Origin: a virus
Reading direction: 5' to 3' (one strand)
DNA: 29,281 bases
IMG/VR virus record: IMGVR_UViG_3300021197_001062
Coordinates: 1-29,281 of that record
The notes under the pieces are model-generated. The model made no database searches. It was not told the DNA's origin and worked only from the letters and a program-made list of their open reading frames with translations. Shown here piece after piece: positions 2,421 through 29,189 of this stretch. Numbering within the stretch: position 1 is the stretch's first letter; the number at the start of each line of letters is the position of its first letter. A program made the position numbers and the translations under genes.

Positions 2421-4019
2421 ATGACAGATAGTGGTATATTTTTAGGTAGCGGCGCATCAATGACTTTTGTTCCAGAGGTGGACTTTTATTTCCAACCTGC
2501 GACAACTAGCACAACTCAAATTCAATTTTTACAATCAGCATTGGCTCAGTTTCAATTAGTTGATGATATGTATGTTGGTTGTGCTATTGATTGGTATAAT
2601 GCCGGAGTTTATACTTCTTCTCACACTGTTACTTCTAACGACAATGATACCTTTACTATTACACCTGCTACAAGTACGGCGGTGGATATTTCAGCAGATT
2701 CATTCGTATTAAGAGCATATGGCGCACCATGCCCTGCCCCCGATTCAGAAGATGATGGAACAGGTAAAACAAGACTTCATGCTGATAATTGGCTTGGATT
2801 AATTGAAACTGCGGCATTCCCTAATATTGAAGTTGAAATGAAGCAATTGAATCTTTCTCTCGGTGGTACAAGAAACTTTACTCATCAATACAAAGGTATT
2901 GAAACTGCATCTGGCGGTAACTTGGCTTTGATGTGTAATCATGTAACTTGGCTTTATTATGCTTTAGGTAAATGTACTGAAGTAACTCCGGCATCGACAA
3001 GCACTTCTAACCACCCAACAAATTACCATACAGGAACTAACTCCCATAAATTATACATTGATGACGGAGCAACCGCTAATTCTCATATTGATGAGGGGCC
3101 ATTTATCCATAGAGTTAATGCCGTTGGTTCAGCAGGTGCTTCTGTTCATATTGTTCCTCCAATCAACCCACTTGTTGAATCTGCACCACAAACTAACTTT
3201 GATAACATCACTTATCCGGTTGCCGCAACAGGAGGATATATTACATATAAATTTGAAGAATCCAATAGCGACCATTTACCATCATTCGCACTTGAATATT
3301 CACTAAGTAAATTAGCAGGTACAGTGGCAACTCATTATCAATCCGAAAATCATGCAAGTGCAGAAGATTTAAACTTCGTTAGGGTAGCAAGAGGAAATAG
3401 AGTAAATACTCTAACAATGACCGCTAATGAAAATGAAGAATTAAAAATGACTATGGACTTGAATACAAGAGCAGTAACGGGAATACCACAGACTATGGCG
3501 ACAGGTACAGGTTATGAATCAAGAGGCGGATTACATTCTGATGAAAATTCATCCTTGTTTAACTTCACATCAGAACCTACTCATTTAGAACCGTTTTTCT
3601 TTTCTGATGGCAGTATTTCAGTATTCGGGCAAGAGTTTTTAAAGATTACTAACTTTACACTGACTATCAACAATAACTTACAAGATAAGAGATTTGTCGG
3701 TGTTGGTAATAAGTCCATTAAAGACGGTATTCCAGCACAAAGAAACTATGAAATAGCGATTACTGCTATGGTTACAGATGATACACTATTCACTGAATTA
3801 TTAAACCAAGACGAAAACAATGTTGCTAGTGAATCTATTGATTTGGTATTTACTAAAGATAGCGGAGAATCGCTTACTATGGCTTTTGATGATTACTTTA
3901 CAACTGCTAACACATGGACTGTTCCTGATGATAAAGGGCCAATTACAGTCGAAGCAACATTAATGCCAAGGACATTAACTAATTGTACTACTATTACTCA
4001 TTGGGTATTACAGGGGTGA
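2421..4019 (+). CDS. Major tail tube protein (putative)
   Basis: A 532-residue, beta-rich, Thr/Asn/Ser-rich protein with a GGAGAG ribosome-binding site. The C-terminal part (FLKITNFTLTINNNLQDKRF, then YEIAITAMVTDD) resembles tail-tube folds, in which a central sheet builds the tube wall. An earlier segment (LNLSLGGTRNFTHQY) looks like another strand pair. At over 500 residues it is larger than most bacteriophage tube proteins, so surface domains are likely. Gene order supports the call: it lies between the terminator candidate and the chaperone plus tape-measure pair. No sheath gene was seen downstream, so the tail is probably non-contractile. Confidence 0.65.
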   Translation: MTDSGIFLGSGASMTFVPEVDFYFQPATTSTTQIQFLQSALAQFQLVDDMYVGCAIDWYNAGVYTSSHTVTSNDNDTFTITPATSTAVDISADSFVLRAYGAPCPAPDSEDDGTGKTRLHADNWLGLIETAAFPNIEVEMKQLNLSLGGTRNFTHQYKGIETASGGNLALMCNHVTWLYYALGKCTEVTPASTSTSNHPTNYHTGTNSHKLYIDDGATANSHIDEGPFIHRVNAVGSAGASVHIVPPINPLVESAPQTNFDNITYPVAATGGYITYKFEESNSDHLPSFALEYSLSKLAGTVATHYQSENHASAEDLNFVRVARGNRVNTLTMTANENEELKMTMDLNTRAVTGIPQTMATGTGYESRGGLHSDENSSLFNFTSEPTHLEPFFFSDGSISVFGQEFLKITNFTLTINNNLQDKRFVGVGNKSIKDGIPAQRNYEIAITAMVTDDTLFTELLNQDENNVASESIDLVFTKDSGESLTMAFDDYFTTANTWTVPDDKGPITVEATLMPRTLTNCTTITHWVLQG

Positions 4020-4165: not shown

Positions 4166-4209
4166 TTCCACCAACACCGTTTGTTCGTTTGTTGGTTTTG
4201 TAGGTGGAA
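4166..4209 (+). promoter_or_regulatory. Hairpin that would mask the ribosome-binding site of the tail-assembly chaperone
   Basis: TTCCACC (4166-4172) is the exact reverse complement of GGTGGAA (4203-4209), and GGTGG is the ribosome-binding site of the ATG at 4214. A second inverted repeat, CCAACA (4171-4176) with TGTTGG (4190-4195), lies inside and shares two bases with the outer stem, so the two may compete or stack. This is the main non-coding gap in the virion operon. Folding would lower translation of the chaperone relative to the tail tube; this role is inference. Confidence 0.45.
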
Positions 4210-4213
4210 GAAT

Positions 4214-4582
4214 ATGTTAGATAAAAAAGTTATAACAGATAAGAATGTGCTTTTTGCACTGAGCGAATCGACACTACATTATATTAAAGTGTCACCCGAA
4301 TTAGATGAATACCTAAAGGTATGGGTTAAAGAACCCACTTGGCTTGAAGCCGAGAAAGCCTTAAATTCAGTCATGAAAATTGACTCTCGTACTCAATCTT
4401 TTGACCTTGACCTAAACGGTATGTATAGGTACATGGTTGAAAACTTTATTGAAAAGACGGAACCTTCATTATCAACTATTGATATGTTGCGTCTTAGCCC
4501 ATATGTGGGTAGTCAGATTAAAGAAATCCTTCCTAATCCAATGAATCTGATGCAGGAGGATGACGAAAAAAAGGATGATTAA
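4214..4582 (+). CDS. Tail assembly chaperone, first ORF (gpG-like)
   Basis: A 122-residue protein. I chose the ATG at 4214 (MLDKKVITDK) over an in-frame upstream start because GGTGG lies six bases before it and the upstream codons fall in the hairpin region. The protein is acidic and mainly helical (WVKEPTWLEAEKALNSVMK, then a C-terminal SPYVGSQIKEILPNP) and ends in Asp/Glu/Lys. Position between tail tube and tape measure, size, and a second overlapping ORF in another frame are the marks of the lambda gpG/gpGT type. These chaperones bind the tape measure during tail assembly and are not in the finished virion. Confidence 0.7.
   Translation: MLDKKVITDKNVLFALSESTLHYIKVSPELDEYLKVWVKEPTWLEAEKALNSVMKIDSRTQSFDLDLNGMYRYMVENFIEKTEPSLSTIDMLRLSPYVGSQIKEILPNPMNLMQEDDEKKDD
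4560..4582 (+). other. Candidate programmed ribosomal frameshift region (+1 or -2)
   Basis: The 23-base overlap of the two chaperone ORFs contains GAAAAAAAGG (4565-4574), seven A in a row. In the first frame it reads GAA AAA AAG GAT GAT TAA, so the classical heptamer A AAA AAG is present in register. However, a -1 slip meets TGA at 4576-4578 at once, while a +1 or -2 slip enters the second ORF. The gpG/gpT genes of many tailed viruses use such slippage. Confidence 0.45.
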
Positions 4583-4784
4583 GGGTGCATTTAAGGGCAA
4601 AGATACAAGCCCTAAAATAGCCTCCTTAATCACTGTTTATATGCTTTCTAAGGCATTGGCAATAAGTCCTTTAGAAGTGTATAAAATGCCTGTTGGTCTA
4701 GTTAAAGACTTATTACAGGTACATGGAGTTGTCGAAGAAATAAAATCCGAAGAAATGGATAAGATAAAAAAGCAAGCAAGGTGA
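4560..4784 (+). CDS. Tail assembly chaperone, second ORF (gpT-like)
   Basis: A 74-residue frame in +1 register relative to the preceding ORF and overlapping its last 23 bases. It has a short basic N-terminus, then helices (SLITVYMLSKALAISPLEVY, PVGLVKDLLQVHGVVEE), and ends five bases before the tape measure. AGGAGG (4554-4559) touches the ATG at 4560, which is too close for normal initiation there; an ATG at 4575 is another possible start. In most tailed viruses this part is made only as a frameshifted extension of the first ORF. The frame is real; its mode of expression is open. Confidence 0.65.
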   Translation: MTKKRMIKGAFKGKDTSPKIASLITVYMLSKALAISPLEVYKMPVGLVKDLLQVHGVVEEIKSEEMDKIKKQAR

Positions 4785-4788
4785 TTAA

Positions 4789-6978
4789 ATGAGTGAAGAG
4801 TCGATTGATGCAGTATCTCAATCGTTATCCACTTTAACTGCTAATCTTGCTCAGAATCAAAAAATATTAGAAAAAGGTAGTAATACTCTAGTTTCGTGGG
4901 CTAGTTCCACAGGAAAAGCAGGTCAAAATTGGACTACCTTTAGCCGTCTTACTTCCGGTACAGGTATTTGGAAGTTACAAAACTACCTTCGTGGTACTTT
5001 AGAAATGATTGGTAAGTTTAGTGATTCCACTAAAAATCAAATAAAAGAACAGACTGAAAATGAAAAGAAGTTAGCAGAGACTGTTAAGGGTGTTAAAAAA
5101 ATAAATGAAGAATATACCGCTTTGCAAAAAACCTATACAAGACACGAAAAATTAGGAAAAAGACTTCAAGGAATTGACAAAGCCGAACAAAGGGCATTAA
5201 AAAAGAGACAGAAGTTAGTCGATGCAGCAGAAAAGAAAGATAAAGGCCTCATACAAACTAAAAGAGAATTACTTGATAGTTTAGATATGCTTGAAAAAAT
5301 AAGAAAAGAGAATCTTGCCCAACAACAGAAAGGAGTTAAACTTAGTATTGCAGATAGTAAACACCTAAAAGAAATGCAAGAAAAATATGCTTTAAGCATG
5401 TCTGCTTTAGATAAAAGGCAGAAAGAATATAGGGCAACAATAGAGGCAACAACAGGCCAAGAAATAAAATCAATAAAAGAAATAAAAGAAGGTTTTGAGG
5501 CTAAACGACAAAAACGAAAGGAATTAGCAAAATTAAGTGACCAGCAAAAGGAAGCATTAGAATCCACTCATGCCTACAATCAAGCAATAATTACAGGTAA
5601 AAGTGAAGTGGAGGCTTATGCCGCAGGTTTCACGCAATTGTCTGAAAATGTTAAACAGAATCAAGAAACCTTTGATGCGTATAAAGAAAAAATGTCCGAA
5701 GCCCTAAAGGTAAAGGAAGCATTTGACGCAGGGATTCAAAGTCCTGAATTTGCTGAATTAGGTAAAAAGGTTGGTATGAAGGGAAGTGAAGGAGAACGGG
5801 GCAAAGTAAGGGGTGAAAACTTTAAAGAAAATAATGAAGCATTTGGTAAAGTATTAAAAAATGCAGGTAAAGGTCTTGCCGCACCTATTGTGGGTGGCTT
5901 TAAATTCCTTAAAAACCCAATAGAAAATATAAAAAAATTAGGGCCTATGATTGGGAAATTGCGGAGCATTCCTACTTTAGTAAAAAACTCAAAATTGGCC
6001 ATGAAAATAAGAATGAAAGGATTAGCATTCCAAAAATTCATGAAGCCCGTTCTTAATATGGCATTCAAATTCTTAATATTCGGTATATTAGGAATGATTG
6101 CGCTATTAGCAATTGCTAAAGTAGCCTATGATATTATGGGGGTGATGGCTGAGTTTGGCATATTCGATGATATGAAAGAAATATTCTTGGCGGCGGTTGG
6201 CATATTGACTTCTGTGTTTGGTATAATAGGTTCATTTATGGATGGCGATTTTTCTGCTATGTTTGATTACTTAGGAACAATAATGTCTGCTTTAATGACA
6301 ATAGGCTGGAATTTATTACAGATATTTGTTAAAGGTATATTTGCTATTGCTGTTGGTATATTCTATTCTATTATAGATATGATGGTTTGGTTGGTTGAGG
6401 GTGGGTGGAAAGTAGCACTACCAGCACTGATAAAGGTAGGAGTCACATTATTAGGACTTTACTTTATTAAATACTTAGTCATGCAAGCACTTTTACTGAT
6501 AGGAGTTTATGCTTTGCCTATTATGATGTTTGTTTTAGTAGCCGCCCTTATTTATGCAGTATTTAGAATGGCGTATAAGAAGTTTGAACCTGTTAAAAAT
6601 CTTATAGATTTGATTTGGGGCGGTATTTCAACCGCTTGGGGTTGGATTACAGATATTTGGGCTTCAGTAAAAGGTTCTATTAACGATGTATTGGATTGGT
6701 TCGGTGCAGATGGATTAGCAACAGGTGGATTAACTCATGGTAATACCAATTTAGTTGGTGAAAATGGGCCAGAAAGGGTCAGATTACCAGCAGGTTCAAG
6801 AGTTTATTCTAATTCACAAAGCAAGTCTATGAGTGGAGGTTCCACTGTGATTAACAATAATATTACTATTAATGCTAAAGATACTTCCGACCAAGAGTTA
6901 AGAAGAATTGCAGATAAGATAGGCACAATGGTAAATAATAGAATTAATAGAAATGTTTCTTCTAGGACTTTGGGGTGA
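4789..6978 (+). CDS. Tail tape measure protein
   Basis: This 729-residue protein starts at an ATG behind AGGTGATTAA. Residues about 75-310 are long, highly charged coiled-coil helices. Residues about 420-590 hold four to five hydrophobic segments (for example ILGMIALLAIAKVAYDIMGV), as usual for tape measures that insert into the host membrane. Residues about 643-670 carry the familiar GGLTHG, LVGENGPE and LPAGSRV motif found near the C-terminus of many tape measures. The C-terminus is Asn/Ser-rich. At roughly 0.15 nm per residue the tail would be about 110 nm long. It sets tail length and travels with the genome. No peptidase or lysozyme-like domain was recognised. Confidence 0.9.
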   Translation: MSEESIDAVSQSLSTLTANLAQNQKILEKGSNTLVSWASSTGKAGQNWTTFSRLTSGTGIWKLQNYLRGTLEMIGKFSDSTKNQIKEQTENEKKLAETVKGVKKINEEYTALQKTYTRHEKLGKRLQGIDKAEQRALKKRQKLVDAAEKKDKGLIQTKRELLDSLDMLEKIRKENLAQQQKGVKLSIADSKHLKEMQEKYALSMSALDKRQKEYRATIEATTGQEIKSIKEIKEGFEAKRQKRKELAKLSDQQKEALESTHAYNQAIITGKSEVEAYAAGFTQLSENVKQNQETFDAYKEKMSEALKVKEAFDAGIQSPEFAELGKKVGMKGSEGERGKVRGENFKENNEAFGKVLKNAGKGLAAPIVGGFKFLKNPIENIKKLGPMIGKLRSIPTLVKNSKLAMKIRMKGLAFQKFMKPVLNMAFKFLIFGILGMIALLAIAKVAYDIMGVMAEFGIFDDMKEIFLAAVGILTSVFGIIGSFMDGDFSAMFDYLGTIMSALMTIGWNLLQIFVKGIFAIAVGIFYSIIDMMVWLVEGGWKVALPALIKVGVTLLGLYFIKYLVMQALLLIGVYALPIMMFVLVAALIYAVFRMAYKKFEPVKNLIDLIWGGISTAWGWITDIWASVKGSINDVLDWFGADGLATGGLTHGNTNLVGENGPERVRLPAGSRVYSNSQSKSMSGGSTVINNNITINAKDTSDQELRRIADKIGTMVNNRINRNVSSRTLG

Positions 6979-25231: not shown

Positions 25232-26119
25232 TTACCACCAATCATCTAATTTTCTTTGTATTTTACCAGTTCTTATACTAGATAAGTCCCATTTCATAGC
25301 CTTGTAAATAGGCTCGGCCTTTTTTAAGACCTGTTCTGCGTAGTGTGACCAATCAACCGTATAACTTTCAAAGTCTGCATAGGTTGTGCCGGAAACATAT
25401 TCCACGCTTCTTATTTCCTTAGTCAAAGGATTTGTATAACTATCGTTAACACTCTTTACTTTAAGATAAAGATAAGAGTCGTCAAAGGTCATATCCTTCT
25501 TTTCCCAACCATATAATACACCGGCAATACCGGAACCAAATGTGGGTTTTTTCCCTTCTAAAGTAGTGAAGTTTTTAGTATCGTTACTGCACTTTTTACA
25601 CCATCCCATTTTCAAACAATCGGTGATGTGATATTTAGTATTACATTTACCGCACTTAACCATAAAGCGATTAGATTTTAACCTACTTCTTTTGATGAAG
25701 TTTTTAATCTCTATCTCACCATTAAGAGTAGCAGTATATTTATCATGCAAGTATGCTAAGATTTCAGTTTCCGTTTTAGAGTTAACCCACATCTTTAGTA
25801 CATCAGTCTGAATAGTTTTTGAGAAGGGAGTTTCACTAACTCTCTTCGCAGTAAAACCCGTCATGGTAAACTTAGGTTTATCTAAATAATTACCATCCTC
25901 CCATACAATCATACCGGCATTTCTATTCTTAGTTACTCCTACTCCTAAAGCAGAATAGTATTTCTCAAACTCTAATACTACGGGGTGTTCATCTAATCCC
26001 ATAACATTAGGAAAGGATTCTCTAACGCTAGTTTCAATTTCTTTGATACATTCTTCTGCTCTTTCGATAGAGTCAATCTGAACATAAATAGAATCAGTAT
26101 GTCCGTAAACTACTTTCAT
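25232..26119 (-). CDS. polB: DNA polymerase B, C-terminal part (motif C, thumb)
   Basis: A 295-residue protein. The ATG at 26119 is preferred to GTG at 26128; GGAGTGAT precedes it. It opens directly with motif C, MKVVYGHTDSIYVQID, where family B polymerases have YGDTDS; the first Asp is His and the second (D9) is kept. Next come the KNRNAGM segment (KKRY-like) and GFTAKRVSETP, both typical of the palm-thumb region. Residues 156-177 hold CGKC, Cys168 and CKKC-like Cys pairs, a zinc-ribbon insert in the thumb. The end (VDWSHYAEQVLKKAEPIY) matches PolB C-termini. With the part at 27522-29189 it makes up about 850 residues, the usual length. Confidence 0.9.
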   Translation of the reverse strand: MKVVYGHTDSIYVQIDSIERAEECIKEIETSVRESFPNVMGLDEHPVVLEFEKYYSALGVGVTKNRNAGMIVWEDGNYLDKPKFTMTGFTAKRVSETPFSKTIQTDVLKMWVNSKTETEILAYLHDKYTATLNGEIEIKNFIKRSRLKSNRFMVKCGKCNTKYHITDCLKMGWCKKCSNDTKNFTTLEGKKPTFGSGIAGVLYGWEKKDMTFDDSYLYLKVKSVNDSYTNPLTKEIRSVEYVSGTTYADFESYTVDWSHYAEQVLKKAEPIYKAMKWDLSSIRTGKIQRKLDDWW

Positions 26120-26124
26120 AAATA

Positions 26125-26334
26125 TCACTCCAATGGATGTTCTATATCTTTATCTCCAAGAGTCCACTTTAGGGCTTTGATTACTCCTTCCAATGCCTTG
26201 TAGTTTCTCATGTGATATATGCGGTCTTTCTTATTTGGACTCTGCATTTTAGTATAGTGCATGTTTTGTTTTCTTTCTGCTTTTTCAAGCATAGTGTGTA
26301 TTTCAGTCCAAGTCCTATCATAAGTAAAGGGCAT
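26125..26334 (-). CDS. Small basic protein between the polymerase parts
   Basis: A 69-residue protein beginning MPFTYDRTWTEIHTMLEKAE. The ATG at 26334 has GGTGGGG upstream and overlaps the previous stop (TGATG); an in-frame TTG directly before is unlikely. It is helical, basic in the middle (QSPNKKDRIYHMRNYK) and ends in an acidic tail. It ends just before the C-terminal polymerase part. No family recognised. Confidence 0.65.
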   Translation of the reverse strand: MPFTYDRTWTEIHTMLEKAERKQNMHYTKMQSPNKKDRIYHMRNYKALEGVIKALKWTLGDKDIEHPLE

Positions 26335-27318: not shown

Positions 27319-27525
27319 TTAATCACATTTCCTATAAACATGCCTAGAATCAGATACACCTATCAATACACAATGCCTTGAAAGGTATTGGCCTATTGAT
27401 GTATTACTTTCAATATAGTTTGATTTATAGCGTTCTACTAATTTCTCTCTTATGGTAAGAGCAGTGAAAGGTTCTTTCATTTCTGCTATAATTTTGTCAG
27501 TCCATACTTGGCATCTTTTATTCAT
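27319..27525 (-). CDS. Winged-helix-like small protein
   Basis: A 68-residue protein that starts in an ATGA overlap with the N-terminal polymerase part, behind AAAGGAGATG. Its order of helix (KIIAEMKEPFTALTIREKLV), helix (NTSIGQYLSRHCV) and a short strand pair (IGVSDSRHVYRK) suggests a winged helix-turn-helix that could bind DNA. It might regulate the operon. The fold call is by pattern only. Confidence 0.55.
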   Translation of the reverse strand: MNKRCQVWTDKIIAEMKEPFTALTIREKLVERYKSNYIESNTSIGQYLSRHCVLIGVSDSRHVYRKCD

Positions 27526-29189
27526 ATTTTCATCTCCTTTGCTTTAAATGCCGCTAATCTAATTGCTTCTCTTGCACTTGCAGTTATTGAAGCGGCTAAA
27601 TCAACATCAGCCCAAGCAAAACCAGTATATCCGATTATGCCATAAAAAGATGCAGATAGGCGTTTTACCGCCATTTGGTTATTATACCACTTAATGTAGG
27701 CTTTATTATTATTCGATTCCCTAGCCTCTCGCATAAGACGCTTATATTCATTTCGCAGTTCCTTTAATTCTAGAACAGATTTAGGCAACAAACCTAACTT
27801 ATCCGTCTTGTAATAAAGCATCTCCACTTCGGTAACTTCGCTGAAATCTCTAGGCGTTAGGATATTAACTCCAAACTCCGTAGGTTCAGATGATTTAGTT
27901 TCAAAAGAAATGTTTCGTGCTATCATCATACTTGGGTACAATCCGCTATAATCAAACGCCGCCACATTAAGATGTAGTCCGTTAGTGTCTTCGCTTAACG
28001 GGTCATAAATCATGGCTCCTTTATACGATTCTTTCTCAGCCTTTTTGTTTCCTGTTGGTGCTATCCACCAAGCATTTCTCATAAAGTAAATTGAACCCAT
28101 ATGACTTGCATAAAAACAAGCATCAAAGGGTGCTTTCAATAATCTTTGCAGTGCTATAATCGCCTCACTACAATAATTAGTTTCATCTATTTCAACAATC
28201 AATTCAACATCTTTCAAAGCATATTGCAAATAAGTTTCAGTATCTTCTAACCAAGCCCTGCGGTAAAACTCGTTAGGGTCTGGGAATTTTTCACTTACTA
28301 GTTTCTTTTTACCTAATAGGATTTCTGAAACATAATCTAAACTTAAAGAAGGTAATGTTCCTCTTTGTGAATCATTCCATTGTCTTTCAAAAGCAAGGTC
28401 TAGATTGAGGGTTATGCGACCCCCTATGGGCTGTTCGATAGGTGAAAACCCCTTTTCACCCTTAATGTATTTGAAGCCACCCTTGCTCTTTTTAAGGCCA
28501 TCTATGCGGTTAATTGGAGACATTCTATTAGGGTTGATTCCTAATGCACAGCATCTTTCAAGAAGTTTAGGTATATCTGCAAAGTTACCAAACCATGCAA
28601 TTAACATATCAGGGTCTTTGTCTATCATAGTATTAATGAAGTGTTCAAGCATATGCTTTTCATCACTACAATAATTCATATTGCTTATCTCTAAAGAATT
28701 ATCGAATATATTCAATTCGTTTTCTTTAGGAAACCAAACCCATTGATGGTATTCTTTATCATAATTATCATACATTACAATAGTAGTAATCTTATCGTGG
28801 TGTTCCCCGCCTTGTTGCCATTCCATATCCCAATACCATTTACGCATTTTATACTCCGGCATTTCTGAAATAGTATCAACTGCATATCTAAAGGTATAAG
28901 GTACATCTGCTTCGTATGTTTTACTAAACATCTTTCTAGCAGAATAGATGTCAAAGGAGTTTTCCACATATACTCTCTTTAGACTTTCTTTATCTAGATT
29001 AACCCAATCACCTCTTTCGTACTCAAAGTTTCTTCTGATATACTTACTAGGTGAATAATTAGCATGTTCTTTTTCGTCTTCCTTGACATAAAAATAAGGT
29101 CTAAATGCTTCCATTAGAAACTTCTTTTCTCCATTTTCTCTCCAAGATTTAAATACATGCTTTCCATCCATACACCTACTAATTATCAT
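27522..29189 (-). CDS. polB: DNA polymerase B, N-terminal part (exonuclease, palm motifs A and B)
   Basis: A 555-residue protein starting at an ATG behind GGGGATTGA. Exonuclease motifs: WDMEW (D121, E123), GNFADIP (D205) and YALKD (Y323, D327), so proofreading looks intact. The YKGAMI segment (389-394) and motif A (DYSGLYPS, 413-420) follow. Motif B is K509-R-L-S-A-S-F-Y-G, where Asn is usual at the Ala513 position. The protein stops at KAKEMKI, right where a full-length polymerase would run on into motif C. Motif C begins the separate gene at 26119. This part alone lacks the second metal-binding site, so it must pair with the other part to polymerise. No intein residues are seen at the break. 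Confidence 0.9.
   Translation of the reverse strand: MIISRCMDGKHVFKSWRENGEKKFLMEAFRPYFYVKEDEKEHANYSPSKYIRRNFEYERGDWVNLDKESLKRVYVENSFDIYSARKMFSKTYEADVPYTFRYAVDTISEMPEYKMRKWYWDMEWQQGGEHHDKITTIVMYDNYDKEYHQWVWFPKENELNIFDNSLEISNMNYCSDEKHMLEHFINTMIDKDPDMLIAWFGNFADIPKLLERCCALGINPNRMSPINRIDGLKKSKGGFKYIKGEKGFSPIEQPIGGRITLNLDLAFERQWNDSQRGTLPSLSLDYVSEILLGKKKLVSEKFPDPNEFYRRAWLEDTETYLQYALKDVELIVEIDETNYCSEAIIALQRLLKAPFDACFYASHMGSIYFMRNAWWIAPTGNKKAEKESYKGAMIYDPLSEDTNGLHLNVAAFDYSGLYPSMMIARNISFETKSSEPTEFGVNILTPRDFSEVTEVEMLYYKTDKLGLLPKSVLELKELRNEYKRLMREARESNNNKAYIKWYNNQMAVKRLSASFYGIIGYTGFAWADVDLAASITASAREAIRLAAFKAKEMKI

Follow-up and report, generated by a model that had tools for sequence, protein, structure and literature searches.

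The two overlapping tail assembly chaperone genes of this virus probably share a programmed frameshift signal, and we consider it likely that in the window (the whole IMG/VR record IMGVR_UViG_3300021197_001062, 29,281 bases) and its branch this signal directs a -2 shift and derives, through the change of one base, from the -1 signal of the family. Judged by the frames of the two ORFs, most junctions of this gene pair are in the -1 state, and the window's register is a minority state displaced by one base. Comparison of related junctions argues strongly for programmed frameshifting and moderately for the -2 direction in the window, where a single missing base appears to have turned the usual -1 slip into a -2 slip.

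ORF A ends in GAG GAT GAC GAA AAA AAG GAT GAT TAA, with GAA at 4565, AAA at 4568, AAG at 4571 and, after the two GAT codons, TAA at 4580-4582. The two ORFs meet at GAA AAA AAG, and the run of seven A spans 4566-4572 (Table 1). ORF B overlaps ORF A one frame forward, which equals two back, and is open to 4784. A -1 shift would terminate at once, because the -1 frame reads GGA (4573) and then TGA; after a -2 or +1 slip the next codon would be AGG (4572), followed by ATG ATT AAG of ORF B. Re-pairing two bases back is possible for both tRNAs on AA_AAA_AAG, with ORF B open from 4572. The window thus falls outside the class of junctions that enter ORF B by a -1 shift, its ORF B being closed in that frame by the TGA at 4576. 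The preliminary description had reported an overlap in the +1 register over seven A, a classical -1 heptamer in register, an immediate TGA after -1 slippage, and entry into the second ORF by +1 or -2, and direct reading bears out each of these points; the SD-like AGGAGG, the 3' stem-loop and the -1 register of most relatives had no place in it.

Table 1. Features at and around the joint of the chaperone ORFs (window coordinates).
Feature	Positions	Strand	Description
Tail tube protein gene	2421-4019	+	PF18906, E 4.7e-14; upstream of ORF A
ORF A	4214-4582	+	122 aa, tail assembly chaperone, gpG-like
Internal SD-like AGGAGG	4554-4559	+	7 nt ahead of the heptamer
Slip site AAAAAAAG (AA_AAA_AAG)	4566-4573	+	contains the -1 heptamer A_AAA_AAG, 4567-4573
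ORF B as entered after -2 (or +1)	4572-4784	+	AGG ATG ATT ..., T-like domain, 70 aa + stop
TGA ending a -1 shift one codon on	4576-4578	+	read from sequence
3' stem-loop	4576-4632	+	family-shared stem begins at 4578, 4 nt past the heptamer
Tape measure protein gene	4789-6978	+	phrog_1538, E 1.3e-4; downstream of ORF B

The assignment of both ORFs to the tail chaperones, made earlier from the letters, is upheld by PHROG matches, fold matches and the flanking genes. ORF A of the window matches phrog_25860 (E 3.9e-5). Among 48 members of the family, ORF A has matches to PHROG tail assembly chaperones in 46, and ORF B matches phrog_9001, also a tail assembly chaperone, in 28. When the AF2 model of ORF A (pLDDT 84) is compared with PDB structures, YqbN ranks first (VIA Z 6.3), ahead of the HK97 tail assembly chaperone (Z 3.6) and of a third entry at Z 2.0; Foldseek alone matched it weakly to the first two of these (E 0.3 and 2.3). 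The AF2 model of ORF B (pLDDT 94) is helical, and a Foldseek search with it gave no match of note; a search of the phage collection with ORF A and the tail tube protein gave no match. The order of tail tube, chaperone pair and tape measure genes is that of lambda, and the pair is of the G/GT type, with overlapping chaperone ORFs between the tail tube and tape measure genes.

Eight IMG/VR searches with ORF A proteins or alignments, from which the best 80 of 161, 138, 420, 346, 346, 346, 336 and 325 relatives were kept, yielded 620 overlapping loci corresponding to 234 distinct junction regions, the window included; these junctions are no census, because each search took the best 80. The two ORFs overlap in all 234, and separate ORFs with their own ribosome-binding sites, which the preliminary description had named as evidence against frameshifting, were found in none. 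ORF B lies in the -1 frame in 224 junctions and in the +1/-2 frame in 10, namely the window (L001), L002, L003, L004, L007, L008, L009, L015 (under which L018 and L020 are grouped), L061 and L063. In L235, around 2845-2916, ORF B meets a stop after 17 codons while the slip site and the upstream ORF are intact, which is either a sequencing error or decay; this locus was retained in the junction counts. The record IMGVR_UViG_3300021958_000021 (184,733 bases) has two tail-chaperone loci, L027 and L202, at contig ranges 144498-156854 and 56528-62869, and represents either two viruses joined or a chimeric assembly.

An in-frame X_XXY_YYZ heptamer lies within the overlap in all 224 -1 junctions of the enlarged set, which was searched with Y = A only. 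The most frequent form is A_AAA_AAC (137), followed by G_GGA_AAC (46), A_AAA_AAG (12) and G_GGA_AAT (10); G_GGA_AAA (8), A_AAA_AAA (7) and G_GGA_AAG (4) are rarer. This frequency is much above chance: across 187 junctions, the body of ORF A has X_XXY_YYZ at 115 of its 17,765 in-frame positions, and in the same set all 177 -1-register junctions have the heptamer inside the short ORF overlap. GAAAAAAAG is present in each of the 10 +1/-2-register junctions, all of which keep AA_AAA_AAG, the SD-like element and the stem. The preliminary description had named conservation of the A run and register in relatives as a check; a slip site is conserved in both registers, and the window's own register occurs in 10 of the 234 junctions, the window included. 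The A two bases upstream that a -2 slip needs is found in all 10, which is not significant because 122 of 156 A-type -1 sites have it too. Up to the point where the heptamer ends, the frame of ORF B holds no start codon (ATG, GTG or TTG) in any of the 224 -1 relatives, and in 83 of them such a codon is also absent for at least 35 nt past it; in those 83 the conserved start of ORF B would be reachable only by a shift of frame at the heptamer.

The upstream SD-like element of a backward-frameshift cassette is present. An AGGAGG-like stretch precedes the heptamer by 7 nt in 138 junctions and by 10 nt in 41, that is, in 179 of 187, and the remaining 8 have GGTGA-type stretches. The mean anti-SD energy is -10.85 kcal/mol versus -5.71 in synonymous recodings (0 of 100 replicate means were as low), computed with an assumed anti-SD, from which that of the host may differ. 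A stretch complementary to this anti-SD at or below -5 kcal/mol lies upstream in 234 of 234 junctions. The window's spacing of 7 nt is unchanged from that of its -1 relatives. A review (PMC5009743) gives SD spacings of 3 nt for +1 shifting and 9-14 nt for E. coli -1 shifting; the window lies just outside the latter range.

A 3' stem-loop under selection is likewise present, and it is weaker in the G_GGA class. In the window, positions 4574-4650 fold with an MFE of -24.3 kcal/mol (z -3.56; 0 of 200 shuffles as good). Among 60 random -1 junctions and all 10 +1/-2 ones of the 187, 60-base windows starting 5 nt past the heptamer have a mean z of -3.48 against dinucleotide shuffles, and control windows have a mean z of about 0 at +30, +80 and +140 and about -1 at -120 and -60. 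For covariation, we aligned 100 junctions after removing near-duplicates and leaving out 28 G_GGA rows; a 12-bp stem drawn from the 50 rows with at least 14 pairs of a window-like fold was then tested on all 100. It is paired in 77.9% of cells, versus 66.7% in shuffles and 43-54% when slid, and two-sided changes occur in 209 cells, versus 86 in shuffles, and in 11 of the 12 pairs. Given that RNAalifold over all 100 rows gave no pairs and that the stem was chosen on half of them, the exact pairs differ between subgroups. In the G_GGA class an MFE at or below -12 was reached in 21 of 32 junctions, and a comparison of the stem region with Rfam gave no family above its cut-off.

It is in the spacer to this stem that the window's group departs from its relatives. 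In the alignment with its relatives, the stretch from slip site to stem is one base short in this group: the shared stem starts 4 nt past the heptamer in the group's seven aligned rows and 5 nt past it in nearly all -1 rows (the -1 junction L282 has an insertion there). Spacers based on MFE structures are 2-4 nt in all 10 +1/-2 junctions and 0-21 nt, mostly 2-8, in -1 junctions.

We infer that one mRNA would give both ORF A alone (gpG-like) and, at a low rate, an ORF A-ORF B fusion (gpGT-like). The AGGAGG on the 5' side and the stem-loop on the 3' side would hold the ribosome on GAA AAA AAG, where the two lysyl-tRNAs would slip two bases back, from AAA-AAG to AAA-AAA, and reading would restart at AGG into ORF B. 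Ribosomes that slipped by only one base would meet the TGA and release a near-normal ORF A product. The one-base change between slip site and stem would have displaced ORF B by one frame and, in the same step, made the spacer one base shorter, which is expected to favour -2.

The preliminary description had treated +1 and -2 as equally suitable. Both do fit the letters, but the evidence leans to -2, because the SD spacing is retained, the spacer is shortened and the length of the fusion is unchanged. According to a review (PMC7618472), the spacer that best suits -2 shifting is 1-2 nt shorter than the one for -1. With a -2 slip, 11 residues separate the PNP motif from the slip and 31 separate the slip from the PLEVY-type motif, values equal to the family mode in 10 of 10 junctions, and this modal spacing is also found in 110 of the 128 -1 junctions that have both motifs. 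These 10 junctions offer few independent tests, because they are related and perhaps go back to one event on ORF B.

Programmed +1 shifting, which we regard as unlikely though the strongest competitor, would have the P-site lysyl-tRNA move from AAA to AAA (4569-4571) while AGG enters the A site, giving a fusion with one lysine fewer. The window sequence permits this; for another tailed virus of archaea, HSTV-2, the shift at the corresponding genes is interpreted as +1, and antizyme +1 shifting, too, has a short spacer to its 3' structure, with a cassette that gives +1 or -2 depending on the host. Against it, the A site holds neither a stop codon nor an evidently slow codon, the SD spacing is 7 nt and not 3, and the stimulators are identical in kind to those of the -1 relatives. 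The fusion would also be one residue shorter than the family mode, as in 12 of the 128 -1 junctions.

We think it improbable that there is no frameshift and that ORF B is started independently, by translational coupling to the end of ORF A. Two ATG codons, at 4560 and 4575, are in the ORF B frame, the second of them five bases from the ORF A stop. However, in the window's group these codons lie 0 and 15 nt from the AGGAGG, whereas the distance for ORF A starts peaks at 5 nt (117 of 180 scored); starts of the tape measure gene are looser, mostly 1-8 nt from the SD, with four at 16 nt. One of the 10 junctions, L009, lacks the second ATG, and the AGGAGG is kept in -1 relatives although no ORF B start can come after it. 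Transcriptional slippage on the seven-A run, which would make mRNAs with one A fewer or two more that are decoded normally into the fusion, is the least probable reading even if polymerase slippage is known to be aided by hairpins: 68 of 224 -1 junctions are G_GGA_AAN sites, in which long A runs are lacking, and among the 156 A-type -1 sites the heptamer is preceded by a non-A base in 34, all with the same register and cassette, and the SD-like element has no evident role in transcription.

The register follows ORF B and not ORF A. On the ORF A tree (77 proteins), the window's register needs six changes, at least four of them forced by well-supported branches, and a single clade for it is rejected by the AU test (p 0.0001); on the ORF B tree two changes suffice, and a single clade is not rejected (AU p 0.43). 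Between L061 (+1/-2) and L043 (-1), a single base differs in the 279 nt that lead up to the heptamer, and identity is 98-100% along the 900 nt ahead of the ORF A stop; their divergence begins at the end of the A run, identity falls to 42-70% across ORF B and the tape measure gene, and it returns to 89-99% from about 1,950 nt downstream. The arrangement of L061 is repeated in L063, from another sample, which speaks against an assembly chimera, and L020 and L041 have the same identity pattern at lower values. Among 184 junctions (the 187 minus three with short flanks) there are 145 pairs with close ORF A; ORF B is divergent in 22, and 11 of these pairs cross registers.

On a -2 reading of the window, the A7G site may be a two-way slippery joint, taken as -1 or -2 according to its spacer, at which recombination, by putting a new ORF B and tape measure gene behind a nearly identical ORF A, spread the -2 register to several lineages; we hold the chances of this extension to be evenly balanced. 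Across the 177 junctions compared, the correlation is 0.68 between ORF A and ORF B and 0.46 between ORF B and the tape measure protein. ORF B thus tracks ORF A better than it tracks the tape measure protein family-wide, so exchange would be occasional. Our expectation that ORF B and the tape measure protein would co-vary in the family as a whole is refuted by a partial correlation of 0.10 given ORF A; in pairs with nearly equal ORF A, the correlation is 0.68. In the absence of family-wide covariation, joint exchange is claimed only for the pairs in which it was seen. In L043, L061, L020 and L041, a single block that comprises ORF B and the tape measure gene, at about 0 to +1950 nt relative to the stop of ORF A, is replaced, and such replacement between near-identical flanks is possibly an exchange of tail length.

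Frameshifting at this gene pair takes several directions in known systems. Tailed phages use -1, -2 or +1, with -2 in Mu, according to PMC5009743 and PMC8211752, which read HVTV-1 and HCTV-1, -2 and -5 as -1 and HSTV-2 as +1. The earlier statement that lambda uses -1 and Mu -2 agrees with PMC5009743. Lambda G/GT resembles the window in the order of tail tube, chaperone pair and tape measure genes and in a slip site near the end of the first ORF, but lambda shifts -1, whereas in the window a -1 shift meets a stop, and an SD and a stem are both present. The Mu tail chaperone genes, as described in PMC5009743, are read by a -2 shift, and ORF B of the window likewise lies two bases back; Mu, compared here by description, is a bacterial phage, and the window's site keeps a -1 heptamer and a -1-frame stop.

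Two archaeal viruses come closer in different respects. The homologous chaperone of HVTV-1 (Druskaviridae) has GGAGG, a 10-nt spacing and G_GGA_AAG, like the G_GGA class described here; unlike the window, this high-G+C virus of a halophile has ORF B in the -1 frame and another heptamer. The archaeal myovirus HSTV-2 has a chaperone pair with ORF B in the +1/-2 frame, like the window, but at its site (GAC GGG GGC GGC GAG TAG) a +1 shift on GGG is possible and -2 re-pairing is not, and there is no A run. PRRSV nsp2 has a single site at which -2 leads to a long fusion and -1 to an immediate stop, as proposed for the window; its shifting differs in being carried out by a eukaryotic ribosome, stimulated by protein and without a 3' RNA structure. 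The heptamer of E. coli dnaX is A_AAA_AAG. The combination of this heptamer with an SD and a 3' stem-loop, described in PMC5009743, is shared with the window, but dnaX shifts -1 into an early stop, whereas the product frame of the window is -2/+1.

The virus probably infects archaea, as its XPF/Hef-type nuclease, and its split PolB and chaperone, both with characterised relatives in haloarchaeal viruses, suggest. The best solved matches of the nuclease are 2bhn/2bgw XPF and 1j22, which we take to be archaeal proteins. The B-family polymerase is encoded in two separate minus-strand ORFs, at 25232-26128 and 27522-29189, with other ORFs between them; 17 of the 20 best-listed matches among 1,817 records are haloarchaeal viruses, and the second PolB ORF (25232-26128) matches HVTV-1/HVTV-2 only (3 records). 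ORF A and the tail chaperone of HVTV-1 are remotely homologous (hhalign probability 76, E 2.3e-5). No relative was found when host genome contigs were searched with the ORF A alignment and with PolB.

According to the ICTV profile of Aoguangviridae, magroviruses have a PolB labelled as N- and C-terminal parts, a tail assembly chaperone gene and low G+C, and they are akin to Druskaviridae, the family of HVTV-1. The window's G+C content of 34-36%, PolB in two ORFs, XPF-type nuclease and HVTV-1 matches fit this profile. The window may therefore belong to Magrovirales, viruses of Poseidoniales archaea.

If the proposed reading is true, the window would hold an archaeal case of -2 frameshifting. 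A literature search on magroviruses, archaeal and haloarchaeal tailed viruses and archaeal frameshifting, including PMC8651126, PMC10160649, PMC12999244, PMC7318539 and PMC10885494, turned up no report of a -2 shift in an archaeal virus or of frameshifting in magroviruses; a report of an A-B fusion product was not found either. Nature would also have supplied a pair of signals between which one base decides which way the ribosome slips: the 224 -1 and 10 -2/+1 signals are otherwise similar, their chief difference being a single base in the spacer ahead of the stem, and in one instance the ORF A genes found with the two registers are near-identical. Slip direction has been studied before by varying the spacer between slip site and structure, and few cases of recoding are known in archaea; the one-base natural difference makes spacer control of slip direction directly testable on archaeal-domain ribosomes. 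The frameshift site would, in addition, be a recombination joint across which the register can change, and in genomes of archaeal viruses the pair may be split or misnamed by gene callers.

The leader of ORF A (4166-4208; TTCCACCAACA...TGTTGG...GGTGGA) is nearly invariant among the junction loci. Its motif occurs in a single copy in the window, and a comparison of the leader with Rfam gave no family above its cut-off. CCACC and GGTGG are both present in the ORF A leaders of 158 of 182 junction loci, an inverted repeat that would mask the SD of ORF A itself (GGTGG), which suggests a translational switch.
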